Both the position numbers and the translations under genes were made by a program. A stretch of 24,217 nucleotides of DNA from a virus: positions 1 to 24,217 of the IMG/VR virus record IMGVR_UViG_3300032325_000055, one strand, 5' to 3'. Positions 24 to 20,907 of this stretch are shown here, one piece after another. A model generated the notes under the pieces. It saw only the letters and a program-made list of their open reading frames with translations. It was not told the origin of the DNA and searched no databases. Within the stretch, counting starts at the first letter, position 1. The number at the start of each line of letters is the position of its first letter.

Positions 24-1322
24 ATGGTAAAAGTTATTGTAGCAGAAACAAAGCATGATTGCTCTCATCTGTCTGGTCAGTTTATTGACGAAAGACACTA
101 TGACCTTCTTATTGAAGAAGATACCGATGTGTATATGCCATGCAAGTATGGTGAAGATCCATACACAGAGGACAAGATTGTTTTGAAGTTTCGTAAGAAC
201 TACTTTACAAAAGAACAACAGGATATGGCATATGTTGGTCTCCGTGAAGCAGCAGTTGAAACACAGAATCGTGGACTTGCAGCTGGACCACGTGGTGACA
301 AACTAGGTAATCGTGAATGGGTTACTGAGTATGAGTATGATGTGCTTGACTACTTTGTTAAGCCGACAGAGAATCTGTTTGGTGAAGATCCAATCGATCT
401 TATCAAAGAACGCCATAAAGGTAAAGCACCATCACCATCCAATCGTAATAATGTTTGGGGTATTCAGGCAGTCAAGAAAGATAACTTTGACTTTGACACA
501 TGGGTTGAGGCTACTCGTAAACTATCCAATGACGAGATGAAAGCAGAAGCCAATCGTGTAATCACAAAGTATGTTTGCGCAACTACTTATGCCAATGGTG
601 TATTCTCTGGTATTGCTGGTTGGTTTGATCGTTACCCACGTATCCCTTATGGTCGTGCAACTTCATACACTGCTCGTCATCCTGATAAGTTTGCCAAGTC
701 TTTTCCATTCCTTCAGCAATTGGCCAAAGGTTTTAAAGACTTACTTCCACAGCGTTATGCAGCACAGATGGAAGCAGCAAACAAGATCGACAAAGGTTTC
801 TTGGTTCCTGAAACACCATTCACTACTGTTACTGTGAACAAAACTTTCCGTACTGCTGCGCACTACGATGCTGGCGATCTGAATGAAGGTTTGTCTAACC
901 TACTAACACTTTCCAACGATGGCAAGTACACTGGTGGTTACCTAATTGCACCAGAGTATCGTGTTGCAGTTAATCCACGTCCAGGTGACTTGTTGTTGAT
1001 TAACAATCACGAAGTTATGCATGGCAATACTCCGATTGTTTGCGAAGAAGGTTCAGAGCGTATCTCTCTTGTTGTTTACTTCCGTGAGAAGATGCTTGAA
1101 CTTGGTTCCAAAGAATATGAAGATACTCGCTATGAGTTTGTTGAGTCACGCAGACTAAACCGAGAGCATCCTGAGTGGCGTCATCTGTGGAATGGCGTAT
1201 CACAGGGTATGTGGACTTCTGAAGAATGGTATTCATATTGTGAAAGCAAGCTGGGTCGTGAGCAAACAGAAAAGTATCACCCAGAATCAATCAAGTCATC
1301 ATCACTTGAAAGTTTCTTCTAA
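24..1322 (+). CDS. TET/JBP-type 2-oxoglutarate/Fe(II) DNA base oxygenase
   Basis: A 432-residue protein whose C-terminal half has the double-stranded beta-helix signature of 2OG/Fe(II) dioxygenases of the TET/JBP group. Visible residues are the HxD pair H280 and D282 (motif HYDAGD), a distal histidine at H333 (HGNTP; H329 is also nearby) and the 2OG-binding arginine R346 (SERISLVVYF). The spacing and the GGYL...GDLLL segment between them fit TET/JBP better than prolyl hydroxylases. Family members oxidise the 5-methyl group of thymine or 5-methylcytosine in DNA to hydroxymethyl. The N-terminal ~220 residues are not recognised. AGGAG lies 6 bases before the ATG. The stop overlaps the next start by one base (TAATG), so it heads the operon visible here. 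Whether the substrate is T or 5mC cannot be told; no cytosine methyltransferase is in the window. Confidence 0.78.
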   Translation: MVKVIVAETKHDCSHLSGQFIDERHYDLLIEEDTDVYMPCKYGEDPYTEDKIVLKFRKNYFTKEQQDMAYVGLREAAVETQNRGLAAGPRGDKLGNREWVTEYEYDVLDYFVKPTENLFGEDPIDLIKERHKGKAPSPSNRNNVWGIQAVKKDNFDFDTWVEATRKLSNDEMKAEANRVITKYVCATTYANGVFSGIAGWFDRYPRIPYGRATSYTARHPDKFAKSFPFLQQLAKGFKDLLPQRYAAQMEAANKIDKGFLVPETPFTTVTVNKTFRTAAHYDAGDLNEGLSNLLTLSNDGKYTGGYLIAPEYRVAVNPRPGDLLLINNHEVMHGNTPIVCEEGSERISLVVYFREKMLELGSKEYEDTRYEFVESRRLNREHPEWRHLWNGVSQGMWTSEEWYSYCESKLGREQTEKYHPESIKSSSLESFF

Positions 1323-2005
1323 TGTGTTCAGTTATCGGTGCAATTATTAAAGAACCTCGTACAAAGGATTTCTTAATGCTGCATCGTGTGTTCCTTGAGT
1401 CTAGGATTCGAGGAATGCATGCTACTGGTTTGTCTTATGTTAAAGCGAATTCTATCGTTACACAAAAACTGCCAGTCTCTGCAGATAAGTTTCCATTTGA
1501 TTTTGAATCATATTTAAACGAAGACGGCAATCTCTACTTGGTTGGGCATTGCCGTTATTCAACATCAGATCTTGAATACAATCAACCCATTGCCAACGAG
1601 AAAGTTTCTGTTGTCCACAATGGTGTTATTACTCAAGAACTGTATGAGGATTGGGAACTGCTTCATGGATATACCTGTGAAGGTAAGAACGATACTGAAC
1701 TGTTGTTGAGATCTCTTGATGATTACTCGCCTTTGGAACATTGGAAGCAATCCTCTCTGGCTGTTTGCGAACTACACCGAGACAAATCAATCAGAGCATA
1801 TCGCAATGGGAAGCGACCACTTTACTTGACTTCTTTAGACAATGGATGTATAATTACTTCTACTAAGGATGTTATTGTTCGTTCGGGTATTACCGATCCA
1901 ACAGTAGATGTTCCAATGAATACCTACATTACCTTTGACGAATGCCTAACAATGTCTATGGAGAAAGCTGACGTTGAAGGTGTTGATTATCAAATCGGAG
2001 TTTGA
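1322..2005 (+). CDS. Class II (Ntn-type) glutamine amidotransferase
   Basis: A 227-residue stand-alone glutaminase domain of the PurF/GlmS type, which releases ammonia from glutamine for a partner enzyme. The nucleophile would be Cys2 after removal of Met1. The other canonical residues are present: R78 in GHCRYST, N100-G101 in VHNGVI, and D124 in NDTE. These match the Arg, Asn-Gly and Asp positions of GlmS-type domains. There is no fused synthetase domain, so ammonia must go to another protein; the amidoligase that begins on the very next base is the obvious acceptor. It starts in a 1-base overlap with the oxygenase stop. A sigma70-like promoter (1826-1854) lies within its 3' part. The biochemical activity is well supported, the partner is inferred. 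Confidence 0.88.
   Translation: MCSVIGAIIKEPRTKDFLMLHRVFLESRIRGMHATGLSYVKANSIVTQKLPVSADKFPFDFESYLNEDGNLYLVGHCRYSTSDLEYNQPIANEKVSVVHNGVITQELYEDWELLHGYTCEGKNDTELLLRSLDDYSPLEHWKQSSLAVCELHRDKSIRAYRNGKRPLYLTSLDNGCIITSTKDVIVRSGITDPTVDVPMNTYITFDECLTMSMEKADVEGVDYQIGV
1826..1854 (+). promoter_or_regulatory. Sigma70-like promoter inside the amidotransferase gene
   Basis: TTGACT (1826-1831), a 17-base spacer, then a perfect TATAAT (1849-1854). It lies about 150 bases before the amidoligase start and could give a second entry for transcription of the downstream modification genes. It is inside coding sequence, so chance is possible, but the exact hexamers and spacing match several other sites in the window. 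Confidence 0.45.
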
Positions 2006-2977
2006 ATGAAATATAATACTGATGAGTTTAGCTACGGAGTTGAACTAGAGTATGGTGATAGTTATCGCTTTTGTGAGTTACCAGATGGTGCTCAGTGGAA
2101 TGACAAAGACAATACCTGCGTAAGCAGTACAGGTATCGCCAACGATCCCAATGGCAAGGTATATGCTTATGGTGGTGAGATCAATACTCGCCCAACCATG
2201 ACCATTGCTGAACAGATTGAACACATTGCCAAGATCAATGCTGCCCTTTGTCCTGCTCCGATTGTTAATTACCGTAGCAACTTACACATTCACATTCGTG
2301 TGCCAAACCTACACAACAATCTCGAAGATTGTAAAAAGTTGTTACGCTATGTTGAACGCTATCAGCAACAGGCATTTGATATCGTTGAAACCATCCCCAC
2401 ACCAAATAAAAATGTGTTACCACCAGAACAATACGAGTGGGCAATAAAGCGTATGAAGCGTCGTAAGAAGTCGCATCAGAATAAGTTGCCACCTGCTCGA
2501 GTTGAGGCTATGTTGGCTTCTGAAACAACACATGACTTCTACGTTAACCATGCGCACAAAAATGCTGATGGTGAACCAGCATGGTTCCAATGTCCACGTG
2601 CTGGTATCAATCTGCGTCAGATGTGGGAAGAAACAAACACTATCGAGTTTCGTCACTTTCCAGGAACGCTGTATATGCCAGAGATGGAATCTTGCATTCG
2701 TTGGTGCAGAGACTTTCTTGATGCAGCATTGAACCGAGATGATGTATCACCACGTGAGTTTCATGCTGAAAGCGAATGGCAGTTTCCTGACTTCCAACCC
2801 TACGAGTTTGAAACTGAACAGGTGTATCAATGGACTAACTTTGATACCAACACAAAGAAGGATATCGAAAAACGTATTGCTGCACTTAGAAAAGAAATAG
2901 ACATCGATGCTATTGGCAAGGTTACATCTCTTGATGTATTTCCTATCATGCGTCGTTTACAAGCAGAGGGTTTATGA
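2006..2977 (+). CDS. Amidoligase (Amidoligase_2-type COOH-NH2 ligase)
   Basis: A 323-residue protein with the hallmarks of the glutamine-synthetase-like amidoligase fold, which uses ATP to join a carboxylate to an amine or ammonia. Signatures in order: YGVELEYGD (E13, E15) at the N terminus, GGEINTRPT (E58), the metal/ATP-type strand NLHIHIRVP (H94, H96, R98), and NTIEFRHFPGT (E214, R216) near residue 215. The C-terminal ~80 residues are charged and helical. It follows the class II amidotransferase with no gap (TGAATG), with GGAG upstream, so the two are probably made in equal amounts and act as a glutamine-dependent pair. The substrate is unknown. From context I infer an amino acid attached to a DNA base; a peptide or cell-wall substrate is an alternative. 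Confidence 0.8.
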   Translation: MKYNTDEFSYGVELEYGDSYRFCELPDGAQWNDKDNTCVSSTGIANDPNGKVYAYGGEINTRPTMTIAEQIEHIAKINAALCPAPIVNYRSNLHIHIRVPNLHNNLEDCKKLLRYVERYQQQAFDIVETIPTPNKNVLPPEQYEWAIKRMKRRKKSHQNKLPPARVEAMLASETTHDFYVNHAHKNADGEPAWFQCPRAGINLRQMWEETNTIEFRHFPGTLYMPEMESCIRWCRDFLDAALNRDDVSPREFHAESEWQFPDFQPYEFETEQVYQWTNFDTNTKKDIEKRIAALRKEIDIDAIGKVTSLDVFPIMRRLQAEGL

Positions 2978-3396
2978 AAGTATTGTTTCTTTGCCATGGC
3001 AATGTAAACCGCAGTGCTGCTGCGGAGATTATTCTTAGGCAAGACTATCCTCACATTGAAGTTAAGTCAGCTGGTCTTAAGACTACTGATGGTAGGATTA
3101 CTGCCAAGAAGATGCGTGATGTTCTTAATGACCATGGTTACAAGACAGAAGGTATTCGTTCTACCGCAGTTACTCAAGAGTTGGTTGATTGGGCGGATGA
3201 AATCTTCTACATGGATGATGCTAATAAAAAAAGATTTGTCGATAAATTCGGAGACTTACCCAAAGCACAAAAGCTGTCCAATCTAATTCCTGGAGTTAAA
3301 AGGATTCCTGATCCAGCATTTGCTGACGGAACTGATATGCACCATGAAGTTGTTAACCTAATTAAGACTGCTTTGAATACATGGACTACCGCTTAA
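2974..3396 (+). CDS. Low-molecular-weight protein-tyrosine-phosphatase-like enzyme
   Basis: A 140-residue protein of normal family length with the phosphate-binding loop C-x5-R-S at C7-R13-S14 (CHGNVNRSAAAE) and the general-acid Asp in RIPDPAFADG (D113). The usual second Cys in the CxGNxCRS loop is Asn12. Cys7 is the only cysteine in the protein, which argues against a thioredoxin-coupled arsenate reductase, since those need extra cysteines. Start and stop overlap the amidoligase by ATGA. In host bacteria such enzymes dephosphorylate tyrosine or small phosphoesters. Inside this operon it might hydrolyse a phosphorylated pathway intermediate or counter the kinase encoded two genes later; this is inference only. 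Confidence 0.85.
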   Translation: MKVLFLCHGNVNRSAAAEIILRQDYPHIEVKSAGLKTTDGRITAKKMRDVLNDHGYKTEGIRSTAVTQELVDWADEIFYMDDANKKRFVDKFGDLPKAQKLSNLIPGVKRIPDPAFADGTDMHHEVVNLIKTALNTWTTA

Positions 3397-4400
3397 GAGA
3401 GAATCGTAGAGAAGCATTTATACGCTGGTACGCATGGTCATTGAAGTATGATGATTGCGATCCAGCTGTATGGGCTACGAATTATCTAAACAAACGCTAC
3501 GAGCACAATGACGAACAACGTCTGTGGCTTTGCTGGTTGTATGGCAACACTTACTACCTTCCAACCGCATGGGTCTTGTTAAACGAATTCCCAGACTTTG
3601 AATTGGCCACTGTCTCTCGTATGGAGCAATGGAATACGGCTAACTACAAACGATTACGTTATCAAACAGATACCAAGTGGAACAAAGGGCATCTACCAGA
3701 GATGTTTGCTTCATATCAAAAGTTTATCGGTGACAAAACACAACGTGAAGTAATGGAGAGTTATTATGGTGACAACGAGAGCAGAAATTTTGACAACCTG
3801 TGGAATGTCCTTAAAGGCGATCTTCATAAGTTTGGTCGTTACTCCACTTGGTTTTATCTTCAGCATCTTAAGCATACCGCTGGTATTCGGGTCGATCCTA
3901 CTTCTCTTATGCTGGATGACTATTCTGGTTCTCGCTCTCATCGTAATGGGTTGCTTTATGCCCTCGGCAAAGATGACCTTTGCGATACAAAACTTACTCA
4001 GTCGGAATACGCTAGTCTTGAAAGCGAGTCAATCTCCATCCTTATGGAAACAAGATCCCGTTTCCCCGATCTAGTAGATCAGGTAGACTTCTTTACGATG
4101 GAAACCTGCCTTTGTTCCTTTAAAAAGATCTTTCGTGAACACCATGGTCGTTACCTTGGTTACTACCTAGATCGTCAGGCAGAGGAGATTATGCAATGCG
4201 AAAAAGATGGTTGGTTTGGTATTGAGTGGCAGGTGCTGTGGGATGCTCGTAGCGAAACCATAGACTTACGCTTGGATAGTAAACGTGGAATTGTCAAGGA
4301 GAACTTTACTTCCTTTGTTAGAACAGGTAAAATGTCTAATCTGGAATGGATGTTTGATGATGAAGAATATGTTAATACAGGACTGGAGAACTTTTTATGA
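3381..4400 (+). CDS. Helical amino acid:DNA transferase-like (aGPT-pyrophosphorylase superfamily)
   Basis: A 339-residue, mostly helical, Trp/Tyr-rich protein. Segments such as LWLCWLYGNTYYLPTAWV, KRLRYQTDT, KFGRYSTWFYLQHL and SGSRSHRNGLLYALG resemble the amino acid:DNA transferase / alpha-glutamyl-putrescinyl-thymine pyrophosphorylase group found in phages with hypermodified thymine. In that family the enzyme replaces the (pyro)phosphate on 5-hydroxymethyl-dU in DNA with an amino acid or polyamine. It overlaps the phosphatase gene by 16 bases, has no clear ribosome site of its own (so is probably coupled), and its stop overlaps the kinase start by ATGA. The pairing with a P-loop kinase is what the pathway requires. 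The assignment is from remembered motif similarity and could not be checked by profile search. Confidence 0.62.
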   Translation: MDYRLRENRREAFIRWYAWSLKYDDCDPAVWATNYLNKRYEHNDEQRLWLCWLYGNTYYLPTAWVLLNEFPDFELATVSRMEQWNTANYKRLRYQTDTKWNKGHLPEMFASYQKFIGDKTQREVMESYYGDNESRNFDNLWNVLKGDLHKFGRYSTWFYLQHLKHTAGIRVDPTSLMLDDYSGSRSHRNGLLYALGKDDLCDTKLTQSEYASLESESISILMETRSRFPDLVDQVDFFTMETCLCSFKKIFREHHGRYLGYYLDRQAEEIMQCEKDGWFGIEWQVLWDARSETIDLRLDSKRGIVKENFTSFVRTGKMSNLEWMFDDEEYVNTGLENFL

Positions 4401-4939
4401 GAAAATTGATGGCAGTTGGTGGTCAGCCAGGAACTGGCAAAACGACACTGTTTCGTAAGTTTATGGAAAGTTACCAGTGGGAAACTGTAGAACCAAAGAA
4501 GATGCTTCCTGCTCTCTACTGTAAGGAACTAGATCTTTACGTGCTGGGCAAGTACGAAGATGGTGAAACCTTTGCTGGAACTGATCGTTTAAGTATGGCT
4601 GTTCAGCCTGTGGCACAGAGTTTTGTATCGGAAACCACTTCCAATATCCTGTTCGAAGGAGACCGAATCTTCAACCAGTCTTTCTTGGAATTTGCCATGG
4701 GTTTGGAAAACACCGATCTTCAGGTGGTTTATCTCAAGGTTCCAAATGACCTGCTAAAGCAACGCTATGCAGATCGTGGATCTGACCAGTCCGAAACCTT
4801 TCTAAAAGGTCGTGCGACTAAATATAATAATCTACTCTCAAACTTTGAGTTGATGCCCTATATTACTGAGTTTGTAAACACTAACTTAGAGGAACAAGGG
4901 AAAGTTCTTGCATTTATGGAGAAGCACTTAGTGAGTTGA
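4397..4939 (+). CDS. P-loop kinase, candidate 5-hydroxymethyl-pyrimidine DNA kinase
   Basis: A 180-residue P-loop NTPase with Walker A GQPGTGKTT (K15, T16) at the extreme N terminus, a GTDRLSM segment near residue 62, EGDRIFN near residue 95 (a likely Walker B or base-binding region), and a lid-like stretch LKQRYADRGSDQ. Size and layout fit a small-molecule or nucleic-acid kinase. Phage 5-hmdU DNA kinases have this core and sit next to the amino acid:DNA transferase, as here. GGAG lies 8 bases before the ATG, which overlaps the previous stop by four bases. The kinase fold is certain. Its acceptor is inferred from the operon; a deoxynucleotide or tRNA-end kinase is an alternative. Confidence 0.75.
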   Translation: MRKLMAVGGQPGTGKTTLFRKFMESYQWETVEPKKMLPALYCKELDLYVLGKYEDGETFAGTDRLSMAVQPVAQSFVSETTSNILFEGDRIFNQSFLEFAMGLENTDLQVVYLKVPNDLLKQRYADRGSDQSETFLKGRATKYNNLLSNFELMPYITEFVNTNLEEQGKVLAFMEKHLVS

Positions 4940-4964
4940 CCTGCAAGGATTTTCTAGGTATAAT
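4936..4964 (+). promoter_or_regulatory. Strong sigma70-like promoter before the metallopeptidase gene
   Basis: TTGACC (4936-4941), exactly 17 bases, then perfect TATAAT (4959-4964). The -35 overlaps the kinase stop codon. Transcription would start near 4970-4972, so an mRNA from here would begin at or just before the ATG at 4972. The left arm of a 10-bp inverted repeat fills the end of the spacer. Confidence 0.6.
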
Positions 4965-4989
4965 TATGAATATGAAATTCCTAGAAAAT
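4949..4989 (+). repeat. 10-bp inverted repeat around a start codon (operator or RNA hairpin)
   Basis: ATTTTCTAGG (4949-4958) is perfectly complementary to CCTAGAAAAT (4980-4989), with 21 bases between. The loop holds TATAAT and the ATG at 4966; the AGG that would serve as its ribosome site is in the left arm. In read-through mRNA this could fold over the start region. In DNA it could be a two-half-site operator on the promoter. Confidence 0.55.
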
Positions 4990-5679
4990 GCAAACTTTAA
5001 TTGGATGGAAATGCTCAACTTCTATGAGCAACCATTCAGGGCTAAACTCATTCCTGCGAAAGTCTGGAAAGACCTAGACCGATACCGCAATGATTCAGCT
5101 GGTCTTACTAACTATGTTCGCAAGTGGCGCACCAAGATCAACTGGGTCACCGTAATTCCTAAGAAGAAATCCTACGAAACCAACGTCTATGTTGGTGGTG
5201 AATACGATCCAAACGATCGTCAGTGTATCCTTATAATCTACGCCAAGGACTTTGACAACTTTCCGTTCACAGATGAAAAATGGGTTCGTTTTAAGTTTCG
5301 TCTGATTCAAACTCTGATGCATGAGATCATTCACTTTATGCAGTACGATCGCAGAGATGATATTTGGAGCACCTATGTTGTTCCTTATAAAAAGGTAGGC
5401 ATAGCAAAGAAAGATGCCGAGCGCAGATACCTTTCTGAATATGATGAGATTCAGGCATATGCCCATTGCGTTTATCTAGACTACAAGATGCGCAAACCCA
5501 ATGTTCCAATCGAAACTCTATTGGCTCGTTGCAAGAAATCCAAAGACAAAGACTCTTCCACTCTCCATTACGTTCTAAAGACATTCAACTATGACTTTAG
5601 GAACAATGGTGCGCCTCGTAAAATCATTGACCACATCGGTAAATGGCACAGAAAGTATTCTAGACTTAATCCTGCCTAA
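4966..5679 (+). CDS. HExxH metallopeptidase-like protein of unknown substrate
   Basis: A protein of 237 residues from ATG 4966, preferred over the upstream TTG at 4936 because of its position after a weak AGG; ATG 4972 is also possible. It carries a zinc-peptidase motif HEIIH (H119, E120, H123) in a helix LIQTLMHEIIHFMQYD, and an acidic cluster SEYDEIQAYAH (E158, E161) 35-40 residues later that could give the third metal ligand, as in gluzincin or SprT-like proteins. The rest is basic and aromatic, and no signal peptide is seen. It follows the kinase gene closely but has its own promoter, so it may be only a neighbour of the modification operon. A candidate role is intracellular proteolysis of a host or phage protein. 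Overall family membership is uncertain. Confidence 0.65.
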   Translation: MNMKFLENANFNWMEMLNFYEQPFRAKLIPAKVWKDLDRYRNDSAGLTNYVRKWRTKINWVTVIPKKKSYETNVYVGGEYDPNDRQCILIIYAKDFDNFPFTDEKWVRFKFRLIQTLMHEIIHFMQYDRRDDIWSTYVVPYKKVGIAKKDAERRYLSEYDEIQAYAHCVYLDYKMRKPNVPIETLLARCKKSKDKDSSTLHYVLKTFNYDFRNNGAPRKIIDHIGKWHRKYSRLNPA

Positions 5680-6565: not shown

Positions 6566-7789
6566 ATGCTGAATCTCAAGTCCTACTTAAAAGAAGAAAA
6601 AAACACTCACATGGAGCACCTCGAAGATCTGATCTTCAATGAGGGTGTTGCGGGAACAAAACAAGCGATCAAGTTTCTGCGTGATCTGCGTGACATGCTT
6701 GCCAGCAGTGCAAAGTCAAAAGTTACTTCTACTGTAAAGTGGGATGGGTCACCTGCTATCTTTGCTGGTATTGACCCACGTGATGGAAAATTCTTTATCG
6801 CGAAGAAGGGCATCTTTAATAAAGAACCAAAGGTTTATAAAACACCAGCAGAAATTGATGCTGATACAGAAGGTGATCTGGCTGTAAAGTTTAAAGTTGC
6901 CCTGCAAGAGTTTAGTAAGTTGGGAATTAAAAAAGGTGTCTATCAGGGTGATCTAATGTTTACTCAATCAGACCTGAAAATAGAAACCATAGAAGGATCC
7001 AAGTATGTTACCTTCCATCCCAACACTATTGTTTATGCAGTGCCAGCTGAAAGCGATCTAGCCAAACAGATCAAGAAAGCAAAGATCGGTGTTGTGTGGC
7101 ATACCACTTATACTGGTGCTACCTTTGAATCAATGACTGCTTCCTTTGGTAAAGGCATCGTTGAGAAATTCAAACAAGTTCCAAGCATCTGGATGGATGA
7201 TGCAAACTACAAAGACTATTCAGGTACTGCTACCTTTACGAAAGCAGAAACCATTAAACTGGATAGCATTATCAAGAAAGCCGATGCGCTTGTCTCGTCA
7301 ATTCAAACCCCTGTGCTAAACGGCATTAGCCAGAATCCAGACTTACTGATATTGGTTAAAACCTTTGGCAATAGCAAGGTTCGTGCTGGCGAAAAGATTG
7401 CTGACACCAACAAGTACGTGACTGAACTGTTTAACTATATCCATGAGAAACTGGAGCCAAAGCAGAAAACCGAAAAGGGTAAAGCTGCTGGTGAAACAAA
7501 ACGTAAACAGATCATGGCATTCTTTGCCAACCATGATAAAAAAGAGATCGTTAAGATATTCGATCTAGCCAATACGTTGGTTGACGCCAAGCATATGATT
7601 GTTGATAAGATGAATCAGGCTGGTCATATCTCTACCTTCCTTAAGACTACCAATGGCTTTAAGGTTACTGGAGTTGAGGGTTTTGTTGCTATTGACCATA
7701 TGACTGGTGGAGCAGTTAAGATCATTAACCGCATGGAGTTTAGCCAGTCTAACTTCTCTCCAGACATTATCAAGGGTTGGCAAAGATAA
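6566..7789 (+). CDS. Ligase-type covalent nucleotidyltransferase (DUF6267-like)
   Basis: A protein of 407 residues from ATG 6566. It resembles a conserved family of T4-like phages (recalled as DUF6267). I see the ordered motifs of ATP-dependent RNA/DNA ligases and capping enzymes: motif I KWDG with K58 as the candidate AMP-accepting lysine, a motif III-like GVYQGDLMF (126-131), motif IV EGFVAI (E371) and motif V AVKIINR (K385). The long stretch between III and IV contains an insertion. This suggests sealing or adenylylation of a nucleic acid, possibly RNA repair. The start is chosen because MLNLKSYLKEEKNTHMEHLED fits the family's N terminus; there is no Shine-Dalgarno and a promoter ends 9 bases upstream. 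The activity is predicted from motifs alone. Confidence 0.6.
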   Translation: MLNLKSYLKEEKNTHMEHLEDLIFNEGVAGTKQAIKFLRDLRDMLASSAKSKVTSTVKWDGSPAIFAGIDPRDGKFFIAKKGIFNKEPKVYKTPAEIDADTEGDLAVKFKVALQEFSKLGIKKGVYQGDLMFTQSDLKIETIEGSKYVTFHPNTIVYAVPAESDLAKQIKKAKIGVVWHTTYTGATFESMTASFGKGIVEKFKQVPSIWMDDANYKDYSGTATFTKAETIKLDSIIKKADALVSSIQTPVLNGISQNPDLLILVKTFGNSKVRAGEKIADTNKYVTELFNYIHEKLEPKQKTEKGKAAGETKRKQIMAFFANHDKKEIVKIFDLANTLVDAKHMIVDKMNQAGHISTFLKTTNGFKVTGVEGFVAIDHMTGGAVKIINRMEFSQSNFSPDIIKGWQR

Positions 7790-7794
7790 AGATG

Positions 7795-7804
7795 CCTAAA
7801 TAAT
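7795..7804 (+). promoter_or_regulatory. Possible T4-style late promoter (CCTAAATAAT)
   Basis: CCTAAATAAT lies in the 41-base gap between the ligase-like gene and the first virion-type gene, about 30 bases before its ATG. It matches the TATAAATA type in seven of eight positions (TAAATA core exact) and resembles the motifs at 5676 and 16351. It would fit late transcription of the virion block. Confidence 0.4.
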
Positions 7805-7830
7805 ATGTATATTTTTATAAATGGGTAATA

Positions 7831-10800
7831 ATGAAGAATTATAGACAGCTAATCAAGGAACTTCCTTCCAAGAAAGTAGTATTTGCCTTTGGACGCTTCC
7901 AGCCTCCAACGACAGGTCACGAACTTCTTGTTAATGCTGTTAAAAAACTGGCTGGCACGACAGCTGACCATGTTATCTATGCCTCAAAGACTGAGGATAA
8001 GAAATCAAATCCCCTTCCCGTTGCTCGTAAGGTATACTTCCTTAAGAGGATGTTCCCGAAAACAAACTTCGTTGCCGCAAGTGCAGAAGTGAGAACATTT
8101 ATCGAAGCAGCAAAAGAACTCAACAAAAAATATAAAAATCTTGTTATGGTTGCTGGTAGCGACCGTATTAGCGAATATGACAAGATCTTAAACAAATATA
8201 ATGGAACAGAGTTTCATTTTGATACAATCGAAGTAGTCTCCGCAGGTGAACGTGATCCAGATAGCGATACAGCTTCTGGTATGAGTGGCACCAAGATGCG
8301 TGAAGCAGCAGTGGCTGGTGACTTTAATAAATTTAAAAAAGGTTTGCCACATACCCTAACCGAACTGGATGGTCGTCGTTTAATGAACGACATCCGCAAG
8401 GGTTTGGGTCATCCTATTATCAAAGAACAATTGGTTGTAGAAAAAGACGACCTTAGAGAAAAATACTTTAATGGTGAGATCTTTAATGTTGGAGATATCG
8501 TAGAGTCATCCGATATTCAATATGAAATCGTCAAGCGTGGTTCAAATCACCTATTACTAAAACAACAAGATGGATCCCTAGTTTCAAAGTGGATCCAAGA
8601 CGTAACACTAGTGGAAGAGATAAAAATGAACGAAGAACTATCCGATAAAACAATCAAAGGTTCCGACAAGATTAAAGTTGCACGTATTATTGCTAATACC
8701 TTTGGTGTGGAAAATGCAGAAGCAACAAGCGATCCTACACAGTTGGTTAACTCTGGTCTGCGTAAGGTTCGTGGTAAAGCATTCAATGCTGACTCACTAA
8801 AAATTATTGGTAAGATGCTTGAGTTGGCCAGAGAAGTTGGTATTCAGTATGATAACAATCTCGTTCCTACCAAGTTAAAAGAAGGTGTTATCCAGCCAAA
8901 CGGAACAGACAAGATTGATGTTCAAACCAGCGCACCAACCGATCGCACAAAAACTGTCTACTACAAAGACTTTAAGAAGATGCTTCAGAAAGAAGAAATT
9001 GTAGACAAGAAAGACAATGAAAGCGATCATGATACTGAGGCACGTGCGAAGGCACATCCTCATACTCAGGTTGGTCATGCCATGACAGCAGATACTGATA
9101 GCAGCAATGTGCGTCGTCAAAAGATTAAATATCGTCTCGGTGAAGAAGTAGAACTAGATGAGTCTGCATCTGAGTTAGATAAACACATCTCCACTTTTGG
9201 GAAAGGTGTTAAGTCTTCAGCTGCAAAACAAAGCACCTACAAAAAAGATGGTAAGCCTATTCACAATATGAAGCATGTTGAAACTGATTCGGATCATCAT
9301 GCAGTTTTTAAACATCTGCAAAAGATGGGTTACAAAAAAACTTCTGGTTACGATCCAAAACCAAATGAGTTTGACATGCACCACAATCGTGATGAGATGA
9401 CTTCAAAGAGCGATCCAGTTCACCATTCATCTGGCGTTTCTGCTCATGTTGAAAAAGAACATGGTGGTAAGACTAAGGTTCACTTTACTCATCGTGGTAT
9501 GAAAGAAGAAGTTCAGCTAGACGAATCATATGAGAAAGCTGAAGCACATCGCACTAAAGCCATGGAAGCGCAAAAGAAAGGTGATGCTGAGAAGTTTCAT
9601 CACCACATGAGCAATCACTACGAAGCACTATCGCAGTGGCATGATAGTAAAGGTCGTCACAATATGGCAGACCTAACTTCTCAAAAAGCAGACAAGCACC
9701 ATGAGGCATCACTCAATGGTGGCAAGTTAAAGACAGAAGAAGTAACTGAAGAACCAGCGATGAAACATCGTGTGGCTGTTACTGTATCTGATCCAAACCA
9801 TACTGCAGTTTCTAAACGTAAAGAGCAGGTTCAAAAGTTTGCCAAGGTAACTGCTGGCAGTGAAGAAGATGCCATTAAGAAAGCCACTGCGCACTTTAAG
9901 AAAGCTGGATTCAAGATACATGGTGCCGAACATCACTCAATGGTCAAGGAAGATCTAAACGAACTATCAAACGATACACTGGGTTCTTACAAAAAGAAAG
10001 CTGGCGCTGAAGCAAGTGCTGCTGATAAAGTTGGTGATACTAAGAAAGCAGACAAGCGTTTTTCTGGTATCATTAAAGCTACCAAAAAAGAATTTGTCAA
10101 TGATCTGAAGAAAGAAGATGTTGATACATCTGAGTATACTGTTAAAAAGTTTGTTGCTGGTGATGGCAAAACTCATGAAAGAAAAGTTCGTCCAAAGCGT
10201 ATAACCTTTGCTGCAAGCAATAGTGGTGGTGAACCAGCGCAAAGCAAGCAAAGAGACGAAAGTTACTATGTTGATGTAATCAATGCTTTAAACGAAGCCA
10301 TGACAGCTATCGACAAAGGTGAGTACGACTACGAAGGTCAGATGGCAAGAACACAGTTGCAAACAACATTACGCAATTGCAAAGATTTGATTGACATGAT
10401 CAAAGACGATGATAACATGCCAGAGTGGGTTCAATCTAAGATTACCCTAGCACAAGATTACATCACAACTGTTAGAGATTACTTACAGTCAAAAGAAGAA
10501 CTTGTTGCCGAGGGTTTGCAACCAGACAATGATCCGTTCTTTGACGAAGACGCAGATGAAGAGTTATCAGATGATGACATGGATGCCATGATCAACAATA
10601 CTCAAGATCATGAGTTCTTGGATGCTTACGAAGATGATGAATTACACATCATTGATTTAGATACTGGCGAGCCAATTGAAGACGAAGAAAAAGTAAACGA
10701 AGAAACACTCATGGAAGTGTTGTCTCGTTTTGAACGCATGCGTGCTAAGATGCGCTTTGCCAAAACAAAATCCAAACGTGAACGTCGTATGGCTATCGCA

Positions 10801-11061
10801 CTAAAGAGCCGTTCAAGCACTGAAACTTTAAATAGACGTGCACGTCACATGGCTGTTGTTCTAATGAAAAAACGTATTGCCAGAAAACCGCTGAGCCAGT
10901 TGTCAATTGGTGAAAAGGAAAGACTGGAAAAGATTATTCAAAGACGCAAAGATGTTATTGGTCGTATCGCCATGAAGCTGACACCACGCATGCGTAAGAT
11001 TGAACAAAATCGTTTGACGCACACCAAGGGTGGCACAGGCAGCACTAACAATGCCTTTTAA
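7831..11061 (+). CDS. Cytidylyltransferase-like domain fused to a long modular virion-type protein
   Basis: At 1076 residues this is the largest gene here. Residues ~15-195 form a nucleotidyltransferase of the HxGH class: GRFQPPTTGH (21-30) is the HIGH-type motif, and MSGTKMR (151-157) is the ISxTxxR-like motif, as in NMN/FAD/phosphopantetheine adenylyltransferases. The remaining ~880 residues are Lys/Glu/His-rich and modular. They include repeated acidic linkers (EEVELDES, EEVQLDES), a segment LNELSNDTLGSYKKK of a kind recalled from other T4-like virion proteins, and an Arg/Lys-rich C terminus (about 960-1076). It probably acts as a capsid or prohead-interior protein carrying an enzymatic head. 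The nucleotide substrate is unknown. It starts after a late-promoter-like motif with a weak ribosome site, and AAGGA before the next ATG links it to that gene. Confidence 0.75.
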   Translation: MKNYRQLIKELPSKKVVFAFGRFQPPTTGHELLVNAVKKLAGTTADHVIYASKTEDKKSNPLPVARKVYFLKRMFPKTNFVAASAEVRTFIEAAKELNKKYKNLVMVAGSDRISEYDKILNKYNGTEFHFDTIEVVSAGERDPDSDTASGMSGTKMREAAVAGDFNKFKKGLPHTLTELDGRRLMNDIRKGLGHPIIKEQLVVEKDDLREKYFNGEIFNVGDIVESSDIQYEIVKRGSNHLLLKQQDGSLVSKWIQDVTLVEEIKMNEELSDKTIKGSDKIKVARIIANTFGVENAEATSDPTQLVNSGLRKVRGKAFNADSLKIIGKMLELAREVGIQYDNNLVPTKLKEGVIQPNGTDKIDVQTSAPTDRTKTVYYKDFKKMLQKEEIVDKKDNESDHDTEARAKAHPHTQVGHAMTADTDSSNVRRQKIKYRLGEEVELDESASELDKHISTFGKGVKSSAAKQSTYKKDGKPIHNMKHVETDSDHHAVFKHLQKMGYKKTSGYDPKPNEFDMHHNRDEMTSKSDPVHHSSGVSAHVEKEHGGKTKVHFTHRGMKEEVQLDESYEKAEAHRTKAMEAQKKGDAEKFHHHMSNHYEALSQWHDSKGRHNMADLTSQKADKHHEASLNGGKLKTEEVTEEPAMKHRVAVTVSDPNHTAVSKRKEQVQKFAKVTAGSEEDAIKKATAHFKKAGFKIHGAEHHSMVKEDLNELSNDTLGSYKKKAGAEASAADKVGDTKKADKRFSGIIKATKKEFVNDLKKEDVDTSEYTVKKFVAGDGKTHERKVRPKRITFAASNSGGEPAQSKQRDESYYVDVINALNEAMTAIDKGEYDYEGQMARTQLQTTLRNCKDLIDMIKDDDNMPEWVQSKITLAQDYITTVRDYLQSKEELVAEGLQPDNDPFFDEDADEELSDDDMDAMINNTQDHEFLDAYEDDELHIIDLDTGEPIEDEEKVNEETLMEVLSRFERMRAKMRFAKTKSKRERRMAIALKSRSSTETLNRRARHMAVVLMKKRIARKPLSQLSIGEKERLEKIIQRRKDVIGRIAMKLTPRMRKIEQNRLTHTKGGTGSTNNAF

Positions 11062-12852: not shown

Positions 12853-13299
12853 ATGAACGAATTAAACATTGCAATTAAAGTGTTGCTGGCAAACACCTAT
12901 GTTTTGTATTTTAAAACACACAGTTTTCACTGGAACGTAGAAGGTGCGGATTTTAGTCAGTACCATGATTTTCTTGGTGAACTATATCAAGACATCTATG
13001 GCTCCGTAGATCCTATTGCTGAATTACTACGCAAGTTAGATGATTACGCACCTAAGAGTCTTGATGAGTTGTTCAAGTACAAAACACTGAACGAAGAAAC
13101 TACTCAAACAACTGATATTCGTGCTATTATGTTAAAACTACTTGCAGACAACGAAGAAGTTATCGCAAGCCTAAATAAAGTGTTCGCTTTGGCAAGTGCT
13201 GCCAATAAACAGGGAATAGCTGATTTTATTGCAGGTAGAATCGATGCTCATGATAAGCATAGCTGGTTCTTACGTGCTTCTGCCAAGAAAACAGGATAA
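12853..13299 (+). CDS. dps: Dps-type ferritin (DNA protection / iron oxidation)
   Basis: A 148-residue four-helix protein of Dps length. The intersubunit ferroxidase ligands are all present with canonical spacing: H26 (in HSFHWNV), H38, D53 and E57, that is 12, 15 and 4 residues apart as in E. coli Dps. The C terminus ends with the family-typical DAHDKHSWFLRAS. It lacks a long Lys-rich N-terminal tail, so direct DNA binding is doubtful; iron/peroxide detoxification inside the cell or capsid is more likely. It sits between virion genes, with a weak ribosome site after the fibre-like gene, which suggests late expression. Its link to the oxygenase operon (iron supply or protection from Fenton damage) is only speculation. 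Confidence 0.88.
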   Translation: MNELNIAIKVLLANTYVLYFKTHSFHWNVEGADFSQYHDFLGELYQDIYGSVDPIAELLRKLDDYAPKSLDELFKYKTLNEETTQTTDIRAIMLKLLADNEEVIASLNKVFALASAANKQGIADFIAGRIDAHDKHSWFLRASAKKTG

Positions 13300-17043: not shown

Positions 17044-17421
17044 ATGATTGAAAAATTGAATAATGATAACTTTTTAAGATTTGCAATGCATAACTATGAC
17101 AATCCACAATGTCATAGCCTAGATGAATTCGAAGAAGACTTAAAGAAGTTTTTGTATCTTAAGAAATTATTTTCAAGATACAGGGTCTCTCAAGAATTAC
17201 GTGAGAGACTTATTCTGAACCACATTATTGTACTGTATAATCTATTCGGTGAGCATGCAACAAGAATGTTGTTCCATAAGATAGATGAACAGGACTGGAA
17301 TGCGTTAATAACCTTTTTGGTGTTCCTTGAAAGGATGCCAGAAAGTATAGACGAGTTTGGTATAGTGACTGCTAACATGTCACTAGACGAAACGATTATA
17401 AAGTCGCTTAGGAAAATTTAA
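17044..17421 (+). CDS. Conserved T4-like phage protein of unknown function
   Basis: A 125-residue predominantly helical protein. Segments HNYDNPQCHSLDEFEEDLKKF and LRERLILNHIIVLYNLFGEHATRMLF are familiar from many aquatic T4-like phages (recalled as a DUF family) with no assigned role. It has no signal peptide or membrane segment. It follows the fibre gene after 17 bases without a clear Shine-Dalgarno, and its stop overlaps the next start by one base (TAATG), so the two proteins are probably produced together. A structural or assembly role is possible. Confidence 0.7.
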   Translation: MIEKLNNDNFLRFAMHNYDNPQCHSLDEFEEDLKKFLYLKKLFSRYRVSQELRERLILNHIIVLYNLFGEHATRMLFHKIDEQDWNALITFLVFLERMPESIDEFGIVTANMSLDETIIKSLRKI

Positions 17422-18173
17422 TGTCAAGAATTGTAGACAATCTGATTGCATATAGAATCTTATCGATGTTGGTAACTCCATTCGATAAGACACCTGCATA
17501 CAGATTGGGAATCATCGATGAGAAGGGCAAGATCCTTCGTAAGATGGCAGAGCTAAGAACTGACGAAGAACGTACTGCGTACACATACCTTCATCGTCTA
17601 GTTTTTAACCTCAAGCGCATTCTCATTAAACTTCCTGGTGGCGATTCTAAACTTAAGAATGTCGTTGCAGCATTCTTTTTGATTAAAGAATGCTACGAGA
17701 AAAATGATACAACAGCTTTGCTTGAAGAAAAATACATGGCAATTCTAGAAAAGCTGGAAGAACAAAACATTACATTGGTTGAAGAAGAACTAATGATTGA
17801 GGAATTTATGTTCCTTAATGAAGAAGGTGAAGGTCCAGCCAACGTAACTGGTGCCAATGTTAGCACTAACATACCAGTGGCAAGAATGAAGAGTGGTCGT
17901 CGTTACGCAGCATTTGTTGTTAATGATGAGATCTTCAAGAGATTTAAAAAAGGTAAGAAGAAATTCTCTCAATGGAAAGAATATCTTAACTTAGAGGACG
18001 AAGGCGAGCAGTTAATCTACAAGTACGCTATTAAGAATCCAAAGGGAATTTTAATTCTCAAGAATGGTGCGAATCAAAAAGCAATTCGTTTCAACCGTAA
18101 TGGTGGTGGCAAGTGGAATAAAGTTCAACGCAATCGAAAGCCAACTACTGAAATGCAAATAGAGGATGTTTAA
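17421..18173 (+). CDS. Conserved T4-like phage protein, possibly assembly-related
   Basis: A 250-residue protein. The N-terminal ~85 residues (IVDNLIAYRILSMLVTPF, AYTYLHRLVFNLKRILIKLPGG) form a conserved helical block that I recall in many T4-like phages. The middle is acidic (EEELMIEEFMFLNEEGEG), and the C-terminal third is basic (FKRFKKGKKKFSQW, and RFNRNGGGKWNKVQRNRK). This acidic-then-basic layout suits a scaffold or nucleic-acid-contacting virion protein, but no known domain is evident. It overlaps the upstream gene by one base and is immediately followed by the spanin start (TAAATG). Confidence 0.65.
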   Translation: MSRIVDNLIAYRILSMLVTPFDKTPAYRLGIIDEKGKILRKMAELRTDEERTAYTYLHRLVFNLKRILIKLPGGDSKLKNVVAAFFLIKECYEKNDTTALLEEKYMAILEKLEEQNITLVEEELMIEEFMFLNEEGEGPANVTGANVSTNIPVARMKSGRRYAAFVVNDEIFKRFKKGKKKFSQWKEYLNLEDEGEQLIYKYAIKNPKGILILKNGANQKAIRFNRNGGGKWNKVQRNRKPTTEMQIEDV

Positions 18174-19213: not shown

Positions 19214-20242
19214 ATGTTATTTGTTGATGTTAAATTTGCATCGATGCTTGGTCCACACCTTCGAAATTTCAAACAGAAGAAGGACTACCTGTGGAACTAC
19301 AGTTGCCCTATTTGCGGTGACAGTTCCAAAAACAAACTTAAAGCACGTGGCTTTATCTATAAGGTAAAGTCTGATCTGTTCGTTAAGTGTCACAATTGCG
19401 GATATGGCACGAACATTGGAAACTTTATCAAGTTTGTCAATTCAAACCTTTATGATGAGTACGTATTGGAACGCTACAAGAGTGGCGCAACACGTTACAA
19501 TGATCACAAAGATATCAATGAAGTTGATACTCGTTTTGCCGATACCAAACCAGTCTTTTTACTAGAAGATGATTCGCTAAAAGGTGTAACACGTTTGGAC
19601 AAACTAAAGGAAACTCATCCTGCAGTTAAGTATGCAATCAAACGACAGATCCCAAGAGACATGTGGCACTTACTTTATTTTTGCGCAAAGTTTAAAAAGT
19701 GGACAAATAGCGTAGTTTATAAATTTAGTAAGGAAGATGATGATCATCCACGCATGATCTTTCCATTCTTTAATACAGCAGGTAAGATGTATGCGTTTTC
19801 GGGTAGAGCATTCGGTGCTGAAGAACCAAAGTATTATACAGTAAAACTTGACGAAAATGCTGAAAAGGTGTATGGTTTAGACAGAATTGACTACGGAAAA
19901 CATGTGTATGTAGTTGAGGGTCAGGTTGACTCACTATTCCTTCCTAATTGCATTGCAGTTGCTGGCGCATCGTTCGATCTACCAACCATACAAAAGATCA
20001 AAACTAATTGCACAATTATTATGGATAATGAGCCACGCAACAAAGATATTGTGAAGCAACTTGCTAAGTATATTGAAGAAGGGTATAATGTCTGTATGTT
20101 CCCTGATACCATTCAGGAAAAAGACATTAACGAGATGGTGCTTGCAGGTCGTACAATCGACCAAGTTTTAGAAATCATAAATACAAACTCCTTCCAAGGA
20201 ATGGAAGCGCAGTTGAAGTTTATCAATTGGAGAAAATGTTGA
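19214..20242 (+). CDS. DNA primase (T4 gp61-like)
   Basis: A 342-residue primase that makes RNA primers for lagging-strand synthesis with the replicative helicase. It has an N-terminal zinc ribbon with C31-C34 (CPICGD) and C59-C62 (CHNCG). A Toprim core follows with EGQVDS (E235, D239) and the metal-binding IIMDNEPRN (D271). Length equals that of T4 gp61. It is the first gene after a terminator-promoter pair, so it starts an early or middle operon running on through thyX and nrdA. ATG 19214 is chosen for the GGGA upstream and because translation from it gives the full zinc domain. Its end overlaps thyX by 7 bases. Confidence 0.9.
   Translation: MLFVDVKFASMLGPHLRNFKQKKDYLWNYSCPICGDSSKNKLKARGFIYKVKSDLFVKCHNCGYGTNIGNFIKFVNSNLYDEYVLERYKSGATRYNDHKDINEVDTRFADTKPVFLLEDDSLKGVTRLDKLKETHPAVKYAIKRQIPRDMWHLLYFCAKFKKWTNSVVYKFSKEDDDHPRMIFPFFNTAGKMYAFSGRAFGAEEPKYYTVKLDENAEKVYGLDRIDYGKHVYVVEGQVDSLFLPNCIAVAGASFDLPTIQKIKTNCTIIMDNEPRNKDIVKQLAKYIEEGYNVCMFPDTIQEKDINEMVLAGRTIDQVLEIINTNSFQGMEAQLKFINWRKC
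20061..20089 (+). promoter_or_regulatory. Weak sigma70-like promoter inside primase
   Basis: TTGCTA (20061-20066), 17 bases, TATAAT (20084-20089), about 150 bases before thyX. The -35 matches only four of six positions and the site is intragenic. Confidence 0.3.
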
Positions 20243-20907
20243 AAGTAAGATTAGTAAGTTATAGCAAAGCCTCCAGTGAACTAGAAAATGATGGGTTGTC
20301 GGACGTTCAAGAACTAATTGGTTATTGCGCTAGAGTGAGCAACCCAAGCAATCAACTCAACACAGAGACATCAGAGAAGTTAATTCGATACCTGATCAAG
20401 CACCAACACTGGTCTCCACTAGAGATGGTAAGTGCATGCTTAGAAATCGAAACTACACGTGACATCGCAAGACAGATATTACGACATCGCTCTTTTTCGT
20501 TTCAAGAATTCAGCCAAAGATACGCAGATCCAACAAAAGACTTATCATTTGTTCTTAGAGAAGCACGACTTCAAGATACAAAGAATCGTCAAAATAGTGT
20601 TGAGAATACTAATCTTGCGTTGGCAGCATTCTGGGAAGAAAGACAGATGCGTGTTATCAGAGAAGCTGAGGAGGCATATAACTGGGCTATTCAAAATGGT
20701 ATTGCCAAAGAACAAGCAAGAGCAGTGCTACCAGAAGGTCTAACAGTATCTCGTCTTTATATGAATGGTACATTACGTAGCTGGGTTCATTTTATCGAAC
20801 TCCGATCTGCGAATGGTACACAAAAAGAACATCAACTAATAGCAATTGAATGCGCCCGAGTCATAGCGGAAATATTCCCCATGGCCAGCGAATTCATATC
20901 AGAATAA
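20236..20907 (+). CDS. thyX: Flavin-dependent thymidylate synthase ThyX
   Basis: A protein of 223 residues that converts dUMP to dTMP using methylene-tetrahydrofolate and FAD/NADPH. The family signature RHRxxSxxEFSxRY is complete at 83-96 (RHRSFSFQEFSQRY), and GLTVSRLYMNGTLRSWVHF gives the substrate-binding Arg/Ser region. ATG 20236 overlaps the primase end; GGAG is only 3 bases upstream, so TTG 20239 is a possible alternative start. It belongs to the dNTP-supply operon with nrdA. It makes ordinary dTMP: nothing indicates a hydroxymethylase, so hydroxymethyl bases in this phage, if present, would not come from this enzyme. Confidence 0.93.
   Translation: MLKVRLVSYSKASSELENDGLSDVQELIGYCARVSNPSNQLNTETSEKLIRYLIKHQHWSPLEMVSACLEIETTRDIARQILRHRSFSFQEFSQRYADPTKDLSFVLREARLQDTKNRQNSVENTNLALAAFWEERQMRVIREAEEAYNWAIQNGIAKEQARAVLPEGLTVSRLYMNGTLRSWVHFIELRSANGTQKEHQLIAIECARVIAEIFPMASEFISE

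Follow-up and report, generated by a model that had tools for sequence, protein, structure and literature searches.

A TET/JBP-led gene cassette in a viral DNA fragment, a candidate route to post-replicative thymine hypermodification

How could a phage arrive at a hypermodified thymine if it starts from ordinary thymine already in its DNA? The question is raised by six genes at positions 24 to 4939 of IMG/VR virus record IMGVR_UViG_3300032325_000055, of which we analyzed positions 1 to 24,217 (24,217 nucleotides, here called the window). In phages M6, ViI, and phiW-14, hypermodification proceeds through a 5-hydroxymethyl-deoxyuridine (hmdU) kinase and amine transfer (PMC6449724, PMC7653180). 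A preliminary description of the window, made from its letters alone, had proposed that a TET/JBP oxygenase here makes the hydroxymethyl groups directly in DNA. Based on sequence comparison, we estimate a probability of roughly three in four that the cassette encodes a post-replicative thymine hypermodification route.

The six open reading frames (ORFs) all lie on the plus strand and overlap successively by 1, 0, 4, 16, and 4 bases, in agreement with the 0- to 16-base overlaps described before. All six proteins score above the curated Pfam cut-offs, and the earlier family calls were borne out: Tet_JBP, GATase_6, Amidoligase_2, LMWPc, ADDT, and Ploopntkinase3. Active-site conservation was assessed among distinct homologues, and the catalytic residues of the oxygenase, the amidotransferase, and the kinase are kept in at least 97% of them, consistent with the intact active-site motifs first reported.

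The first gene (24-1322) encodes a 432-residue TET/JBP-type Fe(II)/2-oxoglutarate (2OG) oxygenase (Tet_JBP, 9.9e-25; 87.1 bits against a cut-off of 34.9). Its iron ligands H280, D282, and H333, arranged as HxD...H, and its 2OG-binding R346 are conserved in homologues, and it is 51% identical to a protein of Stenotrophomonas phage DLP_6 and 46% identical to one of Caulobacter phage Cr30. Its family predicts hydroxylation of the 5-methyl group of thymine or 5-methylcytosine in DNA, here probably that of thymine. The label "SNF2 DNA repair protein" on the TET/JBP proteins of DLP_6, Cr30, and S-CBWM1 (KU682439, KF301602, and MG450654) looks like an annotation error. The fifth gene (3381-4400) encodes a 339-residue amino acid:DNA transferase of the ADDT family (PF18724, 5.7e-22; 79 bits, cut-off 26.2), which also holds the M6 enzyme (159.6 bits, 1.4e-46), as expected from the original proposal that this protein is a transferase. 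It has 156 near-invariant positions across 42 distinct homologues, and its family membership predicts amino acid transfer to phosphorylated hmdU. The sixth gene (4397-4939) encodes a 180-residue P-loop protein (Ploopntkinase3, PF18751, 6.8e-11), a predicted hydroxymethyl-base DNA kinase, in which the P-loop GGxPGxGKTT and EGD(R) at residues 87-90 are conserved among homologues. Members of this P-loop family adjoin ADDT and TET in other phages; in Cr30, Magpie, Terij, and Melnitz, a homologue of the kinase is a close or direct neighbor of TET. We rejected the PHROG label "terminase small subunit" for the kinase as an annotation error.

Between the oxygenase and the transferase lie three further genes. 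The second ORF (1322-2005) encodes a stand-alone class II (Ntn) glutamine amidotransferase (GAT) of 227 residues (GATase_6, 5.6e-11), a predicted ammonia source, with the conserved residues of that class: C2, the nucleophile after Met removal, R78, N100-G101, and D124. The third (2006-2977) encodes a 323-residue amidoligase, a glutamine-synthetase-like COOH-NH2 ligase predicted to act last, as an acylating or amidating enzyme. It scores barely above the cut-off of Amidoligase_2 (PF12224; 1e-4, 22.7 bits, cut-off 22), and its low-confidence AlphaFold model (pLDDT 51) has glutamine synthetases as top fold matches at a nonsignificant E value of 0.045. For the amidoligase, GAT, and ADDT, searching solved structures by sequence returned no informative match. 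The fourth ORF (2974-3396) encodes an accessory low-molecular-weight (LMW) phosphatase of 140 residues (LMWPc, 3.8e-17) in which the loop CHGNVNRS is present; among the relatives it occurs only in the window's own near-identical lineage, so we ruled it out as a core part of the cassette. The profile assignments anticipated in the preliminary description were thus obtained for TET_JBP, ADDT, and, narrowly, the amidoligase, and not for HMUDK, as the kinase falls in Ploopntkinase3.

To see how the cassette is kept elsewhere, we scanned viral contigs, obtained 310 relatives of the TET protein, and compared the best 80. The order TET-GAT-[X]-ADDT-(small gene)-kinase recurs in dozens of contigs from many samples and is therefore not a chance arrangement. 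TET and the kinase are kept together in 43 contigs, every one of which also carries GAT and ADDT. Slot X in these 43 holds the amidoligase in 10 and a GNAT acetyltransferase (cluster u0, by Pfam) in 33, never both and never neither; because many of the contigs are closely related, and the 10 include the window, the independent cases are fewer. The six-gene order proposed initially was thus recovered for TET, GAT, ADDT, and kinase, while the phosphatase is restricted to a single lineage and the amidoligase shares its slot with an alternative. Some amidoligase contigs have a second, different GNAT gene (cluster u11), so the exclusivity holds for the slot and not for acetyltransferases generally. 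The TET tree places contigs with the amidoligase on separate branches, the starred ones forcing at least three label changes, and the two amidoligase groups are about 30% identical to each other, which together indicate that the slot has been exchanged. In contigs L031, L061, and L065, radical SAM proteins of about 500 residues lie between ADDT and the kinase, twice in L031, and possibly provide further tailoring.

The locus itself is fixed. Upstream of TET, nearly all contigs with enough sequence carry genes for an exonuclease-like protein, an 828-residue B-family DNA polymerase, a UvsX/RecA-like protein, and a DnaB/gp41-like helicase, all named by sequence appearance and not by family search. 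Downstream, a gene with an HEIIH motif (4936-5679, plus strand), outside the cassette, adjoins its end in both ADDT-type and glucosyltransferase-type contigs. The latter are six contigs with the same TET, and the same flanks where covered, in which GAT, ADDT, and kinase are all missing and a different module stands, made up of a 335-residue protein and a small one named by sequence as HAD-phosphatase-like, neither of which matched Pfam. The low-confidence AlphaFold model of the 335-residue protein (pLDDT 53) is matched best among solved structures by T4 beta-glucosyltransferase (E 2.9e-4, probability 1.00), with further GT-B glycosyltransferases next, and in one contig a GT4-type glycosyltransferase takes its place. 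Alternative decorators behind one TET are what would be expected if TET supplies the hydroxymethyl group.

Which base would TET act on? As the window record is a 24-kb fragment, we judged gene absences on its relatives. Nine long relatives (51-171 kb) yielded no match to PF00303, the thymidylate-synthase fold that would cover both dUMP and dCMP hydroxymethylases, and none to PF00145, the C5-cytosine methyltransferase (C5-MTase) family. The same searches found the PF00303 enzyme in M6, Vi01, and Simon and the PF00145 gene of Melnitz-3. One relative of 168,097 bp, with a 127-bp exact terminal direct repeat as in complete circular assemblies, carries TET-GAT-amidoligase-ADDT-kinase and the flavin-dependent thymidylate synthase ThyX. 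ThyX is also encoded in the window (20227-20907, plus strand; Thy1, 1.2e-44), as context and not as part of the cassette, and in seven of the nine long relatives; its presence implies that the phage makes ordinary dTMP. Given ThyX and the lack of PF00303 and C5-MTase in the long relatives, the most likely reading is that TET stands in for the hydroxymethylase, with thymine in DNA as its substrate, as the preliminary description had suggested for the source of the hydroxymethyl group.

From the families, the catalytic residues, the gene order, the exclusive slot, the fixed locus, and the lack of alternative entry enzymes, we infer a target base, an order of reactions, a nucleophile, a final base, and a protective role as follows. 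ThyX would provide normal dTMP, and thymine would be incorporated into DNA. TET/JBP would then hydroxylate the thymine methyl group in DNA to 5-hydroxymethyl-dU, taking the place of the dUMP hydroxymethylase of M6 and ViI, and the P-loop kinase would phosphorylate the product. ADDT would exchange the phosphate for a nitrogen nucleophile, which could be an amino acid or the ammonia that GAT frees from glutamine. One finishing enzyme would cap the product: here the amidoligase, through an ATP-dependent amide bond, and in most relatives the GNAT acetyltransferase. Unreacted phosphorylated base may be removed by the LMW phosphatase, and the modified base would shield phage DNA from host nucleases or bacterial defenses.

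Parts of this scheme have precedents. M6 and ViI share the ADDT-family transferase and a P-loop DNA kinase, with finishing enzymes that differ from phage to phage. They differ in making hmdU at the nucleotide level with a PF00303 hydroxymethylase, where the nine long relatives lack PF00303 and TET is present instead, and M6 has radical SAM and PALP enzymes where these phages have an amidotransferase and an amidoligase or GNAT. The trio of TET, ADDT, and kinase, presented earlier as part of a candidate new operon, already occurs in two isolates in GenBank. At the left end of mycobacteriophage Magpie (Coopervirus), genes 2-4 are TET/JBP, ADDT, and Ploopntkinase3 in a row (Tet_JBP 26.3 bits, below cut-off; ADDT 4.6e-9; Ploopntkinase3 9e-73), and as in the nine long relatives neither PF00303 nor PF00145 was found. 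Magpie is, however, very distant in sequence, with no GAT, no amidoligase or acetyltransferase between the genes, and a ParB-like gene upstream. Caulobacter phage Cr30 has TET (46% identical), ADDT, and the kinase (39% identical) in one region, but lacks GAT, carries an extra gene resembling TET-associated glycosyltransferases (below cut-off), and has a PF00303 protein whose 373 bits resemble the score of an ordinary thymidylate synthase, the proteins of M6, Vi01, and Simon reaching 54-80 bits. New here are a conserved amidotransferase, the slot for amidoligase or GNAT, the swap of the whole downstream module, and the fixed replication locus, together with clean evidence for TET as a substitute for the hydroxymethylase.

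TET-made hydroxymethyl pyrimidines were reportedly predicted as starting points for phage DNA decoration by Iyer et al. in 2013. TET/JBP-linked phage glycosyltransferases were predicted in 2013, according to the account in PMC4111573, and phages encoding C5-MTase, TET, and glycosyltransferases are summarized in PMC12730594. These systems, like kinetoplastid base J, resemble the cassette in that TET/JBP hydroxylates a pyrimidine methyl group in DNA before decoration. The predicted decoration here differs, being an amine added via phosphorylation and not a sugar, although some relatives with the same TET and flanks have a gene for a glucosyltransferase-like protein. The carboxymethylcytosine (CmoX/CmoY) system (PMC12783734) was dropped as an analogue because members of the C5-MTase family are lacking here.

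The amidoligase and phosphatase also occur in phage Simon (PQ683277), an unannotated isolate. Between 8000 and 23000 of its record, one strand carries an M6-like thymidine hypermodification cluster: ADDT (5.8e-15), an FAD enzyme (DAO), an amidoligase, an LMW phosphatase, a P-loop protein, Nmad5, and a PF00303 enzyme. Among Pfam families the P-loop protein comes closest to that of the 5-hmdU DNA kinase, scoring below cut-off, and the amidoligase, with the LMW phosphatase adjacent, is 41.5% identical to that of the window. Simon thus combines amidoligase, LMW phosphatase, ADDT, and an hmdU-kinase-like protein, as the window does, but uses a PF00303 enzyme as entry where the window has TET (which was looked for in Simon and not found), has an FAD enzyme where the window has GAT, and shares Nmad5 with M6. 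Since the amidoligase and LMW phosphatase accompany ADDT and a hydroxymethyl-base kinase in two settings, one with a nucleotide-level entry and the other with TET, they probably belong to the modification route, and this co-occurrence is the strongest evidence for that assignment.

Several points weigh against the proposed thymine route. The kinase lies outside PF18748 (HMUDK), the 5-hmdU DNA kinase family that holds the M6 kinase, to which it is weakly similar (E 8e-4); we predict that it works like HMUDK though classed elsewhere. The model matches of the amidoligase and the glucosyltransferase-like protein, being of low confidence, serve as hints only, and GAT is retained even where no ATP-dependent ligase is present. 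The choice of thymine over 5-methylcytosine (5mC) depends on the lack of a phage-encoded C5-MTase, and the host might contribute some 5mC through a methylase of its own. Related TETs of phages have 5mC as a substrate (Burke 2021, as described in PMC12730594), which would suit a cytosine version of the cassette, in which TET oxidizes host 5mC to 5-hydroxymethylcytosine for phosphorylation and substitution; so would the Melnitz phages, where a C5-MTase stands immediately upstream of TET and a kinase homologue. We consider that version unlikely, as host 5mC would cover few sites only, ADDT of characterized phages works on hmdU-derived bases, and the nine long relatives, one apparently complete, lack the C5-MTase that the same search detects in Melnitz.

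Within the thymine route, the use of the GAT ammonia can be read in more than one way. Class II amidotransferases normally supply ammonia to a partner, and GAT adjoins the amidoligase in the window; ADDT might then add an amino acid as in M6 and ViI, and GAT ammonia might feed the amidoligase, which would turn the carboxyl group into an amide. This is doubtful, because GAT is equally kept in the 33 contigs with GNAT in place of the amidoligase and phage Simon has an amidoligase without detectable GAT. A Pfam GATase_6 genome search had missed the GAT of the positive-control genome, and we used a profile from our own alignment, which detects it; this profile found no match in M6, Vi01, Simon, Cr30, Magpie, or one glucosyltransferase-type relative. 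GAT thus follows this ADDT group and is linked specifically to neither of the finishing enzymes. Our hypothesis is that the ammonia enters the route with ADDT or close to that step, perhaps giving 5-aminomethyl-dU that is then acetylated by GNAT or coupled to a carboxylate by the amidoligase. The fully specified form, with GAT ammonia as the ADDT nucleophile on phosphorylated hmdU, 5-aminomethyl-dU formed in DNA, and acylation by either enzyme, is possible but tentative. Lee (2022) and Wen (2024) are said to have described 5-aminomethyl-dU and acetyltransferases in other phage thymidine pathways; the title of Wen 2024, at least, as cited in PMC11946847, names 5-NmdU. A more radical division, in which only TET, kinase, and ADDT modify DNA and GAT, amidoligase, and LMW phosphatase form an unrelated pathway of cofactor or cell-surface chemistry inside the operon, could appeal to the breadth of the amidoligase family, to the role of LMW phosphatases in bacterial capsule control, and to Vibrio phage 2.275.O, whose amidoligase adjoins 7-deazaguanine genes. 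It is very improbable, given GAT in 43 of 43 cassettes, its absence from glucosyltransferase-type loci, and the same grouping of amidoligase and LMW phosphatase with ADDT and an hmdU kinase in the unrelated phage Simon.

The Vibrio phage 2.275.O gene (7035-8147) encodes an amidoligase relative, 28% identical, directly beside the 7-deazaguanine genes, which suggests a possible role of amidoligases in deazaguanine DNA modification too. In Methylophilales phage Melnitz-3, an HhaI-type C5 methyltransferase, TET, an unknown 427-residue protein, and a homologue of the window kinase stand in a row, likely a 5mC-TET-kinase version of the same logic. Elsewhere in the window, a 250-residue protein (17421-18173) has a C-terminal Bacterial toxin 50 (Ntox50) match (1.9e-4, barely above cut-off) and an N-terminal phage domain, phrog_18642; a 1076-residue protein (7831-11061) has a cytidylyltransferase-like domain at its N terminus and a long remainder outside any assigned domain; and 12853-13299 encodes a ferritin-like (Dps-type) protein (Pfam 2.8e-21).

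If the proposed route is correct, phages can reach ADDT/kinase thymine hypermodification from ordinary thymine in DNA, with no replacement of the dTTP pool. The finishing chemistry would be a plug-in slot at one locus behind a single TET, open to an amidoligase, an acetyltransferase, or an entire glucosyltransferase module. Should the ammonia route also hold, thymine-derived bases in some phages would bear amide-linked acyl or aminoacyl groups, made wholly after replication from ordinary thymine. The cassette offers TET enzymes that are probably thymine-specific and new candidate DNA-acylating enzymes, and the isolated phages Cr30, Magpie, and Simon carry related genes, with DNA that is accessible to analysis.

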